From contig JAXHNR010000002.1 of the NCBI GenBank assembly GCA_034520215.1, positions 142,060 through 206,059 on the forward strand: a stretch of 64,000 nt of DNA. The letters are read 5' to 3'. Shown in pieces: positions 46,358-53,541 of this stretch. Made by a program: the position numbers and the translations under genes. This stretch comes from Candidatus Krumholzibacteriota bacterium (lineage in GTDB: Bacteria > Krumholzibacteriota > Krumholzibacteriia > Krumholzibacteriales > WJIX01). Under the pieces are notes generated by a model that searched no databases, was not told the DNA's origin, and was given only the letters and a program-made list of their open reading frames with translations. The number at the start of each line of letters is the position of its first letter. The stretch's first letter is position 1.

Positions 46358-47005
46358 ATGAAGGAGTTTTATGATAAATGCAGAAAATCGGTTATAGACG
46401 GCGACGGCGAACTTGCCCTGAAACTCGCCAAGGAAGCCATTGACAACAAAGAACCGGCCATTGACGTAATAGAAAAGGGGTTTGTCCCGGGGATAAGGGA
46501 AGTAGGGAGGCTCTGGGAAAACGGCGCGTTTTTCCTGCCCGAACTCGTGATGGGCGCCGAGGCTATAAAAAAGGCCCTGTCTATTCTTAATCCCATGCTC
46601 GCGGATAAGCAGACAAAGAGGTGTAATAAGGGGAGAGTGGTTATTGGCACCGTTGAAGGGGATATTCATGATATTGGAAAAACACTGGTAGCGACAATGC
46701 TGTCGGCAACAGGTTTTGAAGTCTATGATCTGGGGTTTGATATAGACGCGAACAGCTTCATAGAAGAAGCGGAAAGAAGAGGAGCGGACTGTATCGCCTC
46801 TTCGGCGCTTCTTACGACAACTATGCAGAAGCAGCGTGAAATAGTCGAAGAACTTAAAGTTCGCGGACTAAAGGATAAATACAGGGTCATAGTGGGGGGA
46901 GCGCCGTGCAGCAGAAAGTGGGCGGACGAAATAGAAGCTGACGGTTACGCCAAGGACGCGGTGGCGGCAGTAGAGGTGATAGAAAGACTGATAAACGGCG
47001 GCTGA
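46358..47005 (+). CDS. Corrinoid (cobalamin-binding) methyltransferase protein, MtbC/MttC-like
   Basis: A 215-residue two-domain protein: a helical cap (about residues 1-85; the methionine-synthase B12-binding module 1) and a Rossmann-like B12 domain with the cobalt-ligand motif GDIHDIGKTLVATML (His at about 106) and the later IVGGAPCSRKWADEIEADGY. It carries the methyl group between a substrate-specific methyltransferase and an acceptor. It starts the four-gene cluster of corrinoid functions. Confidence 0.92.
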   Translation: MKEFYDKCRKSVIDGDGELALKLAKEAIDNKEPAIDVIEKGFVPGIREVGRLWENGAFFLPELVMGAEAIKKALSILNPMLADKQTKRCNKGRVVIGTVEGDIHDIGKTLVATMLSATGFEVYDLGFDIDANSFIEEAERRGADCIASSALLTTTMQKQREIVEELKVRGLKDKYRVIVGGAPCSRKWADEIEADGYAKDAVAAVEVIERLINGG

Positions 47006-47033
47006 GAAGAAAAGGCCGGCGTGAGGATTCCCG

Positions 47034-47939
47034 ATGAGCTTTGATTTGAAGAAGATGCTTGACGAGAAAGTCTTGATTTTTGACGGGGCGATGGGGACTA
47101 TGCTGATGGCGGCGGGAATGGCGGGCGATGAAATACCGGAAAGCTGGGTTTTTTCCAGAGAAGAGGACCTCATAAGAATACATTCAGAATATATAGACGC
47201 CGGCGCTGATGTTATTCAGACAGACACATTCGGGGCGAGTGAAATAAAGCTTTCCTCTTCAAGGCAGGGAGCCGGGCTCGATCCGGAGGAAACAAACAGG
47301 AGGGCCGCGGTTTTAGCGCGTAAAGCCAGGAGGAGGTCTGGAGACAAACGTGTCCTTGTGGCGGGAGACATCGGTCCCGCGGGGGGGTTCTTCCCGCCGG
47401 TAGGAAAAATGAAAGAAGATGAGGTGAGAGGAAACTTCGCGCGGCAGGCCCGCGCACTCGATCAGGGGGGGGTAGATCTTTTTCTCATAGAAACGATGAC
47501 CGACCTTAGAGAAGCGGTGGAGGCCCTGAGGGGCGTGAAAGAGGTTTCCGACAAGCCTGTCGTGGTGGAGTTGACTTTCAGCAGGAAACCAAAAGGACAC
47601 TTTACACTTATGGGAAACACGCCCCGTGAAGCAGCAGAAGTCCTGGCGGAGGAAGGCGCCGACATGATTGGAGCTAACTGCACTCTGTCGAGCAGCAAGA
47701 TGATAGAATTGGCGCGGGAGATGAGATCACAGACAAAAACCCCTCTTCTTTTTCAGCCAAACGCCGGGCAGCCTGTTCTGGAGGGAAAGAAAACGCTTTA
47801 CAGGCAGTTACCTGAAAGTTTCGCGAAAGACATAGAAAAAATAGTGTCAGCCGGAGCGGATGCCGTCGGGGGATGCTGCGGTACTACTCCGGAGTTTATC
47901 AGATTGATCAGGAGAAAACTGGAAGGTTCAGGAGCTTAG
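47034..47939 (+). CDS. Homocysteine S-methyltransferase domain protein (MetH N-terminal module)
   Basis: A 301-residue TIM-barrel protein equal to the homocysteine-binding module of MetH. It has FDGAMGTML at residue 16 and the zinc cysteines in GANCTLSS (about 215) and GGCCGTTPEF (about 283). It should transfer a methyl group from the corrinoid protein to homocysteine. The methyl-tetrahydrofolate module normally fused behind it is absent. It lies 28 bp after the corrinoid-protein gene. Confidence 0.9.
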   Translation: MSFDLKKMLDEKVLIFDGAMGTMLMAAGMAGDEIPESWVFSREEDLIRIHSEYIDAGADVIQTDTFGASEIKLSSSRQGAGLDPEETNRRAAVLARKARRRSGDKRVLVAGDIGPAGGFFPPVGKMKEDEVRGNFARQARALDQGGVDLFLIETMTDLREAVEALRGVKEVSDKPVVVELTFSRKPKGHFTLMGNTPREAAEVLAEEGADMIGANCTLSSSKMIELAREMRSQTKTPLLFQPNAGQPVLEGKKTLYRQLPESFAKDIEKIVSAGADAVGGCCGTTPEFIRLIRRKLEGSGA

Positions 47940-47951
47940 CCCGGAGAATAC

Positions 47952-48563
47952 ATGAAGCCGGTTATATACGATAATATAGAGATAGAAATCAAGGAAACGG
48001 AACTTTTCAAAACTCTCGGCAATATGGGCAGGATTGAAAGCTGGAAGGGAAAGGGGCTCGAGGAAAGAATCGAAAAGGCCCTTGATTTGGCGTCTAAACT
48101 CGTAGAGCCAAGAGGCATGTATGTAATCACGGAGGGCAAGAACCTCGGTGGAACAGATATCTTCGACTCACTCGGGAAAATGGCTTTTTCCGCCTGTACA
48201 ATAGGGAAAGATTTGGAGGCGGAAGTGACTGCTCTTTCCAGAGAAGGCGTGATATTGGAAGCTGTGCTGCTGGATTCAGCCGGATCCGTGGCGGTCGAAG
48301 AGGTAGCGGACTATATCGAAAATATAATTTCAGAGATTGCCGGAAAAGACGGGGAAAAAACATCGCCGCGCGCGAGTCCCGGGTACGGAGAATGGAAGAT
48401 AAGTAATCAGAAAAACCTCTTTGAACTTTTACGTCCGGACAGAATTGGAGTTGCCCTGAAAAAGAGCATGATGATGTCTCCGCGGAAATCGACAACTTTC
48501 GCGATACATATTTCGGAAACGCCGGTAAGATTAAGAGGCAAAAATTATCTGGAAAAACTTTAG
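47952..48563 (+). CDS. MetH-type cobalamin reactivation domain protein
   Basis: A 203-residue stand-alone version of the S-adenosylmethionine-binding activation domain of MetH. The key segment RASPGYGEWKISNQKNLFEL (about 137-156) and the following IGVALKKSMMMSPRKS match the domain that remethylates inactive cob(II)alamin. It starts 12 bp after the homocysteine methyltransferase gene with GGAG in the right place. This supports a split cobalamin-dependent methionine synthase. Confidence 0.87.
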   Translation: MKPVIYDNIEIEIKETELFKTLGNMGRIESWKGKGLEERIEKALDLASKLVEPRGMYVITEGKNLGGTDIFDSLGKMAFSACTIGKDLEAEVTALSREGVILEAVLLDSAGSVAVEEVADYIENIISEIAGKDGEKTSPRASPGYGEWKISNQKNLFELLRPDRIGVALKKSMMMSPRKSTTFAIHISETPVRLRGKNYLEKL

Positions 48564-48613
48564 GATCTCAGCTTAAAACAATAATTAACCTTCAACGCTT
48601 TTAAGAGTAAAAT

Positions 48614-50074
48614 ATGAAACGGCCAACCCGAATTAACTGGCTCGAAGATGAAGATGTCGAACGTATAATAGGAGAAGCTATAGTTATCCTCGCCGAAACG
48701 GGCGTGTATATAGAGAATGAAGAAGTTCTGTCCATCGTAAGTGACGCAGGGATAAGAACCTGCGATTTCAGAGCCTTTATGCCGGAAGATGTGGTAAGAA
48801 ACGCGGTAGAATCCGCGCCGGAAAGAGTAACTGTTTATAACAGGCTGGGAAAACCCGCGATGGATCTCGGCGGAAGTAGTCTAAATTTTAATCCGGGGTC
48901 CTCGGCCGTTCAGATACTTCGGCATGGTTCAAACAGGACGGAGGTGCCTGACAGCGGAGACCTGGTAAGATTTGCCATACTTACGGATTACCTCGAGGCT
49001 TACGATGCCCAAAGCACAGCTCTTGTGCCGGGCGATGTGCCGCAGGCGATAGCCGACAGATACAGACTCTACTTAGCGCTGAAGTTTTCCCCAAAACCCG
49101 TGGTTACCGGAACATTCAGCCTCGACGGCTTTGAACCTATGAATGATATGCTGAGGGCGGCTGCCGGGGGAGAAAAAGAATTAAGGGCCGGGCCAATCGC
49201 GGTTTTTGACTGCTGTCCTACATCGCCTCTTTTGTGGAGTGACCTGACTGCCGGCAATCTGGTAGATTGCGCCAGGGCGGGGATTCCGGCTCAAATCGTT
49301 CCAATGCCTCTTGCAGGAGCCACTTCCCCCGTTACTCTGGCGGGGACGATCACTCAGCAGTGCGCGGAAAATCTAAGCGGCATAGTGATCAATCAAATTG
49401 CCGCGCCCGGCGCTCCGGTTATATACGGAGGGTCTCCGGCATGTTTCGATATGAGGAAAGGAACGACGCCGATGGGAGCTGTTGAAACACAGATTATAGG
49501 CGGAGCCGCGGCTCAAATTGCTGAATGTCTGGGGTTGCCGTCGCACGCCTATATGGCTCTGAGCGACTCAAAGGCCGTTGACTATCAGGCGGGTATGGAG
49601 ACGGCAATGAGCGCGGTTATCGCGGCTTTCAGCGGAGTAAATAATGTTTCGGGTCCGGGAATGCATAACTTCCAGACCTGCCAGAGCATGGAAAAACTCG
49701 TGCTGGACCATGAGGTCTGCATGATGGCGAAGAGATTAAGGGAAGGCATTAGAATAGATGGCTCGGGAAGCGCGAAAGAGATTATTGAAGAGGGGATAAG
49801 GAAAAAGACATTCCTGTCACTTGAAAACACCCTGAAATTCTACCGCGAGGTAACATATTTTCCAGACAGTGTTATCGACCGGACCATGGGGGATAGTGAA
49901 GGTGATGTCAGCGAAGGGGATATAATAGAGAGAGCTTCGGAAAGAGTGAAGGAAATCCTCAGATCCCACCGGCCTGTTCCGCTCGAAGAGGAAAAATCCA
50001 GGGCCATAGAAGAAATTATGACGCGGGAAGCGGAAAAAAGCGGAATGGACAACCTTCCGGAATTGCGGGATTGA
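48614..50074 (+). CDS. MttB family methyltransferase (non-pyrrolysine)
   Basis: A 486-residue TIM-barrel methyltransferase of the trimethylamine methyltransferase (MttB) family. Family features include NFNPGSSAVQIL (about 94), GTFSLDGFEPM, CPTSPLLW, PLAGATSPVTLAG and QPxxA-type segments. The frame contains no internal TAG, so it lacks pyrrolysine and belongs with the MtgB-like subgroup, which demethylates quaternary amines such as glycine betaine. The actual substrate cannot be read from the sequence. It ends the corrinoid cluster. Confidence 0.87.
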   Translation: MKRPTRINWLEDEDVERIIGEAIVILAETGVYIENEEVLSIVSDAGIRTCDFRAFMPEDVVRNAVESAPERVTVYNRLGKPAMDLGGSSLNFNPGSSAVQILRHGSNRTEVPDSGDLVRFAILTDYLEAYDAQSTALVPGDVPQAIADRYRLYLALKFSPKPVVTGTFSLDGFEPMNDMLRAAAGGEKELRAGPIAVFDCCPTSPLLWSDLTAGNLVDCARAGIPAQIVPMPLAGATSPVTLAGTITQQCAENLSGIVINQIAAPGAPVIYGGSPACFDMRKGTTPMGAVETQIIGGAAAQIAECLGLPSHAYMALSDSKAVDYQAGMETAMSAVIAAFSGVNNVSGPGMHNFQTCQSMEKLVLDHEVCMMAKRLREGIRIDGSGSAKEIIEEGIRKKTFLSLENTLKFYREVTYFPDSVIDRTMGDSEGDVSEGDIIERASERVKEILRSHRPVPLEEEKSRAIEEIMTREAEKSGMDNLPELRD

Positions 50075-51352: not shown

Positions 51353-52405
51353 ATGAAGTTTTTTATTAAATTATCCGTTTTTTCAGCGGCCGCGGTTCTT
51401 GTTTTTACTTCCTTTTCGGCTGCTTTCTGCGCGGATGAGAAATCGGACAACCCCGTCTTCTATGTTCAAGAGAGGGAAGTTGATGTAGGAGAAGTATATG
51501 AAGAAAAAAATGTGACTTATGATTTTATCGTGGAGAACCACGGCCAGGGAGAGCTGCATATTAACAGAGTTAAAGCCGGTTGAGGATGTTCCGCGGCCGA
51601 TTATGATAAGGTCATCCTTCCCGGGGAGGAAGGAAAAATAAAGACAGTAATCAATACAAGAAGTTTCAGCGGTTATTTTAACAAGAGTTTTACGGTATAT
51701 ACGAATGACCCTGAGAATAAACAGGTGCGGCTGAAAGTAAAAGGCAATATAAAAACGATATTCAAACTCTCAAGACCTGTTTCGATAACGGGGTTTATGG
51801 GTGAAAACCTCAAGCTCAAGACTATCGTTACGAACCTGCTTGTAGAGCCCGTTCATATAGAGGATTTATACTGGGATGAGAGCGCCGACGAAGCCCTTAA
51901 GGAAAAACTCGGAGTCCAGCTCGAAGAGATCGAAAAGGGAAAGAAATACGCTATAGTTTTTGACGATAAAGAACCGTTTGAGCCGGGAACCTATGCCGGA
52001 GCTTTTATTCTCAAAACAGATTTTGATAAGGTAAAGGAAAAGAATATTAATGTAAGGGTAGTAATCAACGCCGAAGTAAGAGCGTATCCGGAAAGGCTGA
52101 TTCTGCCCGAGATGTTGATTCCCGAAGGGACAACCAGAAGTTTCAACAAACTGGTAAGAATTGTAGCTATGAGGGGCGACTCTTTAAAAATTCTCAAGGT
52201 CGTTCCGAGTAGAGAAGATATAGTAACAAATGTCAAAGAAGTCAGGCCCGGAAAAATGTACCGCTGTAAACTTACTATAAGGCCGGAGAGTGAAACGGGA
52301 GAATATCACGGATATCTGACATTTTTTACCAATTATGAAAACTATGAAGAAATCAAGGTTGAAATTCTTGGAAGCGTGAGAGTTATGCCCGCAGGAAAAG
52401 ATTAG
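51353..52405 (+). CDS. Exported DUF1573 protein with in-frame TGA: predicted selenoprotein
   Basis: A 350-residue protein if TGA at 51581-51583 is read as selenocysteine (residue 77). A signal peptide (about 1-27, ending SFSAAFCA) is followed by a DUF1573 Ig-like domain (about 35-122). The family motif, normally SCGCT, here reads GUGCS, followed on script by LPGEEGKIKTVINT and FSGYFNKSFTVYTNDPE. Reading after the TGA continues in the same frame for 273 codons without disruption. Further Ig-like repeats fill the rest (about 130-345). A sequencing error or pseudogene is possible but unlikely. It is followed by a thioredoxin-like gene. Confidence 0.82.
51582..51634 (+). promoter_or_regulatory. 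Candidate bacterial SECIS hairpins behind the TGA
   Basis: Two overlapping, mutually exclusive stems lie directly after the TGA. One pairs GAGGATG (51582-51588) with CATCCTT (51613-51619). The other pairs TCCTTCC (51615-51621) with GGAAGGA (51628-51634) around the loop CGGGGA. The second loop lies about 38 nt from the TGA, at the outer edge of the usual bacterial SECIS distance. A small AAGG-UCAU-CCUU hairpin at 51608-51619 is a third option. None reproduces the E. coli fdhF element. Confidence 0.4.
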
Positions 52406-52569
52406 GGAACGCTCTGTCGGCTGCCGGACGGGAGTATTCGGACAAGTCGTAATTTCTTCGAACTCTAAAGCGTAAAATGCCTTCCGGTCAATCGATGCAG
52501 GTCAACCCTTTTTTGAGCAGAGGCTGTAAGTTTTCAGTTGTTATTTTTAAACTTGGTAAAGGAAATGGA

Positions 52570-53541
52570 ATGAACAAGAGAATCATAAACTATTTAAAAC
52601 CACTTCTTATATTTGCCTCGGTAGTTATGTTGATTAATCCGGGTCTATCTATGGCGGCCGATTCCGGGGATCAGAAAGAGGTGAGCTCTGAATCATCAGC
52701 CGGGGAAGAATTTCAAAAGGTCGTGACTGCTATAAGGAGTAAAAACCGGACTATGGAGCCTGAGCAGGCGGCGGAGTTTTCAGAAGAAAAGCTCGCTGAG
52801 TTTATAGAAAAATATCCCGACAGTCCCGAAGCGGTGCAGGCAAGAATGGGTATAGGGCAGATCTATTTAGGTGTCGGGAATAGCAAAAAGGCTATAGAGC
52901 AGTTTAAGATGACATTAGAAGGTGATATAACCCTGTCAGAAGATAATATAAAGGCGGCGCGCTGGTTTTTGTCCAAAGCCTACCTGAAAAACGAGGATTT
53001 TGATAAGGCGGAAGAACTTCTAAAAAAAATAGCCGGGGAGGCGGAAGGATCAGATGAAAAAATGCTCGCGGCGGCGCGCAACGACCTGGAGAGAATAGAG
53101 ACACTTAAAAAACTTACTGTAGGATCTCCCGCTATTTCTTTTCCGGATACAACCAGGGATATTTCCGGCGAAAATATATCGCTGAAGGAGTTTAAGGGAA
53201 AAGTGGTTCTTCTTGATTTCTGGGCAACCTGGTGCCAGCCCTGTATGATCGAAATGCCGAATGTAATAAAGACCTATAATAAGTATCACGATCAGGGTTT
53301 TGAAATCATAGGTATTTCACTCGACAAAGATATTGATAAGTTAAAGGGGTATATCAAAGAAAATGATATAAGCTGGCGGCAGATATTCGGAGGATATTGG
53401 AAGGCTCCGATTGCCGGAATATACGCTGTGAACTCTATTCCATCAACCTTTCTTATAGGAACCGACGGCGCGATAATAGCCAAAAATATGAGGGGAGATG
53501 AGCTGGAAGAAGCTGTCAGAAAAGGTTTAGGTAAGGAATAG
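52570..53541 (+). CDS. Exported TPR and TlpA/ResA-like thioredoxin protein
   Basis: The start is set at the ATG 52570 (MNKRIINYLKPLL), giving 323 residues with a signal peptide (about 8-28); the frame extends further upstream without support. Residues about 40-160 form tetratricopeptide repeats (YPDSPEAVQARMGIGQIYL, DITLSEDNIKAARWFLSKAYL). The C-terminal half is a TlpA/ResA thioredoxin fold with active site FWATWCQPCMIEM and cis-Pro in NSIPSTFLIG. It acts as a periplasmic thiol reductase and may reduce the Sec-Gly-Cys centre of the gene before it; that pairing is inferred. Confidence 0.88.
   Translation: MNKRIINYLKPLLIFASVVMLINPGLSMAADSGDQKEVSSESSAGEEFQKVVTAIRSKNRTMEPEQAAEFSEEKLAEFIEKYPDSPEAVQARMGIGQIYLGVGNSKKAIEQFKMTLEGDITLSEDNIKAARWFLSKAYLKNEDFDKAEELLKKIAGEAEGSDEKMLAAARNDLERIETLKKLTVGSPAISFPDTTRDISGENISLKEFKGKVVLLDFWATWCQPCMIEMPNVIKTYNKYHDQGFEIIGISLDKDIDKLKGYIKENDISWRQIFGGYWKAPIAGIYAVNSIPSTFLIGTDGAIIAKNMRGDELEEAVRKGLGKE

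Follow-up and report, generated by a model that had tools for sequence, protein, structure and literature searches.

A stretch of 64,000 nucleotides from the genome of a Candidatus Krumholzibacteriota bacterium, in the following called the window, carries a gene whose in-frame TGA at 51581-51583 almost certainly serves as a selenocysteine (Sec) codon, as judged from the sequence comparisons set out below. The analysis supports the prediction that this gene, located on the forward strand at 51353-52405, specifies a DUF1573/OS_HP2-type selenoprotein destined for export. Taking all parts together, we regard it as probable that an exported protein of the OS_HP2 kind is decoded by means of a SECIS hairpin and engages in thiol/selenol redox chemistry with a co-encoded thioredoxin. 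DUF1573, a domain of unknown function, is common among exported proteins. A lineage in which the CGC pair retains Sec and the thioredoxin partner is constant speaks strongly for chemical activity of the pair, and the conserved TPR-thioredoxin offers a concrete, testable partner for DUF1573.

Translated with TGA as Sec (U), 51353-52405 forms a single frame of 350 amino acids with one TGA, at codon 77, and TAG as terminator. The predicted protein comprises an N-terminal signal peptide (MKFFIKLSVFSAAAVLVFTSFSAAFCA), a DUF1573 domain and a C-terminal region. The signal peptide was recognised by eye, as was a GGAGG 5' of the ATG. The Pfam profile PF07610 (DUF1573) spans the TGA (residues 38-133, E 1.6e-22) with a score of 79.8 bits, which exceeds the gathering cut-off of 26.1 bits, and the CGC centre of the domain is present as aligned U-G-C in the context VKAG-U-G-C-SAADYDKVILPG. 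Sec77 is the first residue of this motif, and the second, Cys79 (codon TGT, 51587-51589), is an invariant Cys in the alignment. A preliminary description of this DNA had noticed a single TGA splitting an otherwise intact DUF1573 frame, and both the translation and the profile match across the TGA confirm this; its reading as an exported selenoprotein is likewise supported, the export being predicted from the signal peptide. A scan of the window revealed 24 other in-frame TGA read-through candidates. The frame 3' of the TGA comprises 274 codons in the DUF1573 gene compared to at most 116 in these other cases.

The genome carrying the window (2.6 Mb in two contigs, 97% complete, with the window in contig 2) contains the full set of SelA, SelB, SelD and tRNA-Sec. 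In profile searches SelA, SelB and SelD scored above their cut-offs (496, 349 and 363 bits, respectively), and the tRNA-Sec has the anticodon tca (UCA). SelA is present in 78 of 80 genomes of the phylum, so that co-occurrence with SelA is uninformative. The SelD gene (G000:C1:572311-573237, L112) has an in-frame TGA of its own and encodes a selenoprotein itself; SelD is a classic selenoprotein.

Conservation of the TGA was searched in 58 relatives and then in 80 genomes of the phylum. A TGA at exactly the aligned codon was detected in 26 genes from 25 genomes, the most divergent of them with a protein identity of about 25%, and the protein sequence 3' of it is conserved across the TGA-bearing relatives. 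These genes are confined to two families of the window's order (f1 and f2) and one family of the same class (f7). Six close homologues from the genomes G017, G018, G044 and G045 carry Cys instead of Sec. In the homologue alignment, which also underlies the tree (26 Sec and 11 Cys rows), all 37 rows have Cys or Sec in both CXC columns and every non-Sec homologue has Cys opposite Sec77; any other Cys column is common to at most 11 of 32 aligned sequences. Four Sec/Cys changes were found on the maximum-likelihood protein tree, at least three of them forced by well-supported branches. Tandem DUF1573 paralogues, some with Cys, occur in G045, G044, G017 and G018 (L103, L105, L095 and L098, respectively) and adjoin the Sec gene in three of these four loci. 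They are local duplications with a Sec-to-Cys change. A search of viral contigs yielded no relative of the Sec-DUF1573 gene.

Two explanations that dispense with Sec have to be weighed against these data. The TGA might be a true stop, in a pseudogene, by a sequencing error or at the end of a short functional peptide, as TGA does terminate genes elsewhere in the genome. The aligned TGA in 25 genomes, the conserved downstream protein, the Cys found elsewhere at this site and the conserved SECIS make this very improbable, and a read error is ruled out because the TGA recurs at the aligned codon in other genomes. Still less credible, and in our view negligible, is the reading of TGA as an ordinary amino acid following a code change or by leaky readthrough. 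The open frame is all that speaks for it, whereas the genome has the full Sec machinery and the residue found here in the homologues is Cys rather than Trp or Arg. According to the ORF listing TGA terminates other genes of the window, so that a genetic-code change does not apply, as the preliminary description had already argued. It had further proposed that Sec replaces the first Cys of the CGC motif, and had named a lack of selenocysteine machinery, or reads with TGT or TGC at 51581, as observations that would speak against this. The proposal is borne out by the machinery, the conserved TGA and the SECIS: selA, selB, selD and the tRNA-Sec are all there, homologues with TGA at this codon exist, and their occurrence in independent genomes disposes of a misread Cys codon.

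The hairpin 3' of the UGA, which is common to all Sec genes, is a predicted bacterial SECIS element. In the window it is located at 51615-51634 on the forward strand (stem TCCTTCC/GGAAGGA, loop CGGGGA, 38 nt from UGA to loop). Among 24 aligned Sec genes, 94.6% of the stem cells are able to pair, and pairing dropped to 49-72% when the partner was slid by 1-3 columns as a control. Of these genes, 14 have C-G and 10 have U-A at stem pair 38/51, and 23 have U-A and one has G-C at pair 39/50. Two stem pairs are compensated, with both sides changed, in 11 sequences, and the covariation score of the stem was reached by none of 500 shuffles. In G047, the compensating base swaps a usually conserved Glu for Ala. 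The Sec genes of G009 and G045, which are outside the 24-gene alignment, also keep six pairs. Loop positions 2-3 are GG in all Sec genes, although the Pro-Gly codons there favour GG anyway. Synonymous third-position identity amounts to 0.82 in codons 80-89 compared to about 0.48 elsewhere. Of 305 windows along the gene, the one with the strongest constraint on synonymous positions starts at codon 77. Folding of the single sequence over 75 nt after the UGA was no better than that of dinucleotide shuffles (z -0.36). Two of the six Cys paralogues keep six nominal stem pairs, but their loops and predicted folds differ.

Excerpts of PMC13188914 describe bacterial SECIS elements as having a loop of 3-9 nt with a G within the first two positions, a stem of 4-16 bp and a minimum free energy of at most -7.5 kcal/mol; the distance from UGA to apical loop is 16-37 nt for most of them, and a subset departs from the model. 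With the loop CGGGGA, a stem of 7 bp and -9.5 kcal/mol, the hairpin of the window lies within the limits for loop, loop G, stem and energy. The energy limit was missed by one of 26 relatives (G033, -7.0). The UGA-to-loop spacing of 38 nt is constant in the clade and one beyond the range of 16-37. Since exceptions to the model exist, this spacing is no bar to selenoprotein status. RNAalifold predicted a second small hairpin (GGCC/GGTC, 51595-51613, forward strand) between the UGA and the SECIS stem, which may shorten the effective distance from the UGA to the SECIS. This upstream hairpin hardly varies and exhibits almost no covariation.

The preliminary description was not aware of any DUF1573 selenoprotein, but such proteins are already listed. 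DUF1573 with UGC appears among the selenoproteins in excerpts of PMC9312934 and PMC13188914, and OS_HP2 is given as a pfam07610 selenoprotein with a UxC motif in an excerpt of PMC2398784. PMC13188914 cites Zhang & Gladyshev (2007) for its first report, from a symbiont of Olavius algarvensis. The window protein carries the same UGC/UxC motif in pfam07610, with Sec at the first Cys of CGC as in OS_HP2. The reported OS_HP2 example differs in belonging to another phylum, and no thioredoxin partner was seen for it in the excerpts of these papers. The NCBIfam model NF041425 (OS_HP2 family (seleno)protein, curated cut-off 100 bits) is matched by 27 of 27 clade members; its cut-off was passed by no genome examined in the phylum, the window protein scoring 96.7 bits. 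Because of this sub-cut-off score we call the protein OS_HP2-like and not a formal member. A gap from 74.6 to 60.6 bits on this model splits the clade from the other DUF1573 proteins of the phylum. Cys-type DUF1573 proteins (PF07610, SCGCT) share the domain and the two-residue centre with the window protein, but have Cys where it has Sec, and the distant ones of the phylum reach at most about 61 bits on NF041425. Judged by these scores, the clade is a putative unlisted branch of, or next to, the known OS_HP2 selenoprotein family. What looks new here is the lineage and the fixed linkage of the gene to one for a secreted thioredoxin; with the slightly unusual SECIS, these amount to a useful but modest addition. 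The current NCBI OS_HP2 model misses an entire phylum branch, and the genes of that branch are probably cut at the TGA by standard annotation. Outside the Sec clade, a single in-frame TGA also occurs in a distant match to DUF1573 (G037:C95:2369-2686, 27.8 bits on NF041425).

The gene directly downstream (52570-53541, forward strand) encodes, according to profile searches, a signal peptide, a TPR region and a thioredoxin domain of the TlpA/ResA-like type that contains WCQPC. The ORF as listed (52477-53541) begins too far upstream, and 52570 was taken as the start. What the preliminary description had seen as a neighbouring periplasmic thioredoxin turned out to be a conserved partner. Comparison of the stretches placed it directly 3' of the Sec gene on the same strand in 22 genomes, and it is also present, partly masked, in G042. 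In G002, G004 and G024 it stands after C-terminal DUF1573 fragments, and it also follows a Cys-type pair (G044) and a mixed cluster (G045). It was not seen in G040 and next to one G018 copy, where the contig ends; every relative that allowed the check has it, with Sec as well as with Cys. All partner copies compared keep WCxPC. The partner has the thioredoxin domain with WCxPC in common with the ResA/TlpA/DsbE oxidoreductases (95 bits as ResA-like), but differs from them in an extra N-terminal TPR region and scores below the cut-offs of all named models. Phylum-wide, long matches to the partner (>180 bits, TPR and thioredoxin parts) occur only in the families f1, f2, f7 and f8, whereas the best match in f3-f6 has 102 bits and covers the thioredoxin domain alone. 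Full-length partners are limited to families that have the DUF1573 branch, a co-distribution that rests on two related clades and few independent events. None of five distant Cys DUF1573 proteins of the phylum examined adjoins a TPR-thioredoxin. No link between DUF1573 and a thioredoxin partner was found in the open-access literature searched, in which DUF1573 is named in just three papers, and this is weak evidence of absence; the constant pairing of Sec/Cys-DUF1573 and TPR-thioredoxin genes is apparently undescribed. In G036, the Sec-DUF1573 gene is flanked on both sides by thioredoxin-like genes, since a second one (L102:5767-6843, matching the partner with E 4.5e-10) is located upstream of it. 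Thioredoxin-like matches with an in-frame TGA were also detected in G047 (C198:1529-1855) and G042 (C1:2764405-2764767) and may be further selenoproteins.

In the proposed mechanism, SelB and Sec-tRNA would read UGA77 as Sec, directed by the hairpin 38 nt downstream, and the mature protein would be exported to the periplasm with Sec77-Gly-Cys79 as its sole conserved thiol/selenol centre. Sec77 may attack an oxidised substrate, Cys79 would resolve the Sec77 adduct as a selenenylsulfide, and the TPR-thioredoxin (WCxPC) would reduce the latter again. Its electrons might come from a DsbD/CcdA-type membrane reductase; a DsbD_TM protein (DsbD-type membrane reductase) is encoded in the genome. Thiol/selenol redox chemistry is suggested because Sec lies in a CXC motif without another conserved Cys, and because of the Sec/Cys exchange, the predicted export and the invariable CxxC thioredoxin partner. 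The genomic context favours a redox role of the U-G-C pair, and on balance we lean towards a redox partnership of Sec-DUF1573 and the TPR-thioredoxin. More speculative, and in our estimate somewhat short of probable, is a dedicated two-protein periplasmic selenol relay, in which Sec-Gly-Cys on an Ig-like domain (a new redox fold) would work with its own TPR-thioredoxin and a tandem-hairpin SECIS would bring the distant SelB site within reach. A structure prediction from three sequences was discarded (mean pLDDT 33).

The main rival to the redox reading is a selenoprotein whose U-G-C binds a metal or metalloid (Cu, Hg, As) or a ligand, the thioredoxin only keeping the pair reduced. CXC spacing would suit a soft metal, oxidoreductases are not known to have the Ig-like/DUF1573 fold, and sequence searches of solved structures with the single protein and with a profile found no relative. 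We nevertheless consider metal binding unlikely: no conserved His, Met or further Cys near the motif that could complete a site was found in the alignment, and the constant partner is a CxxC thioredoxin. U-G-C might instead have a structural or assembly role, e.g. by crosslinking an Ig-like scaffold at the surface under redox control, which would agree with the frequency of DUF1573 and related Ig-like domains in the large proteins of the phylum (long frames). Here the protein is small, stands alone and forms a fixed pair with a thioredoxin, and Sec is rarely retained for purely structural bonds, which makes this role improbable.

Just upstream of the Sec-DUF1573 gene, at 46358-50074, the window contains consecutive genes for a corrinoid-protein-like product, a homocysteine S-methyltransferase and an MTTB-type methyltransferase, which form a methyl-transfer cluster. 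The MTTB-type frame within it is open, without an in-frame TAG.
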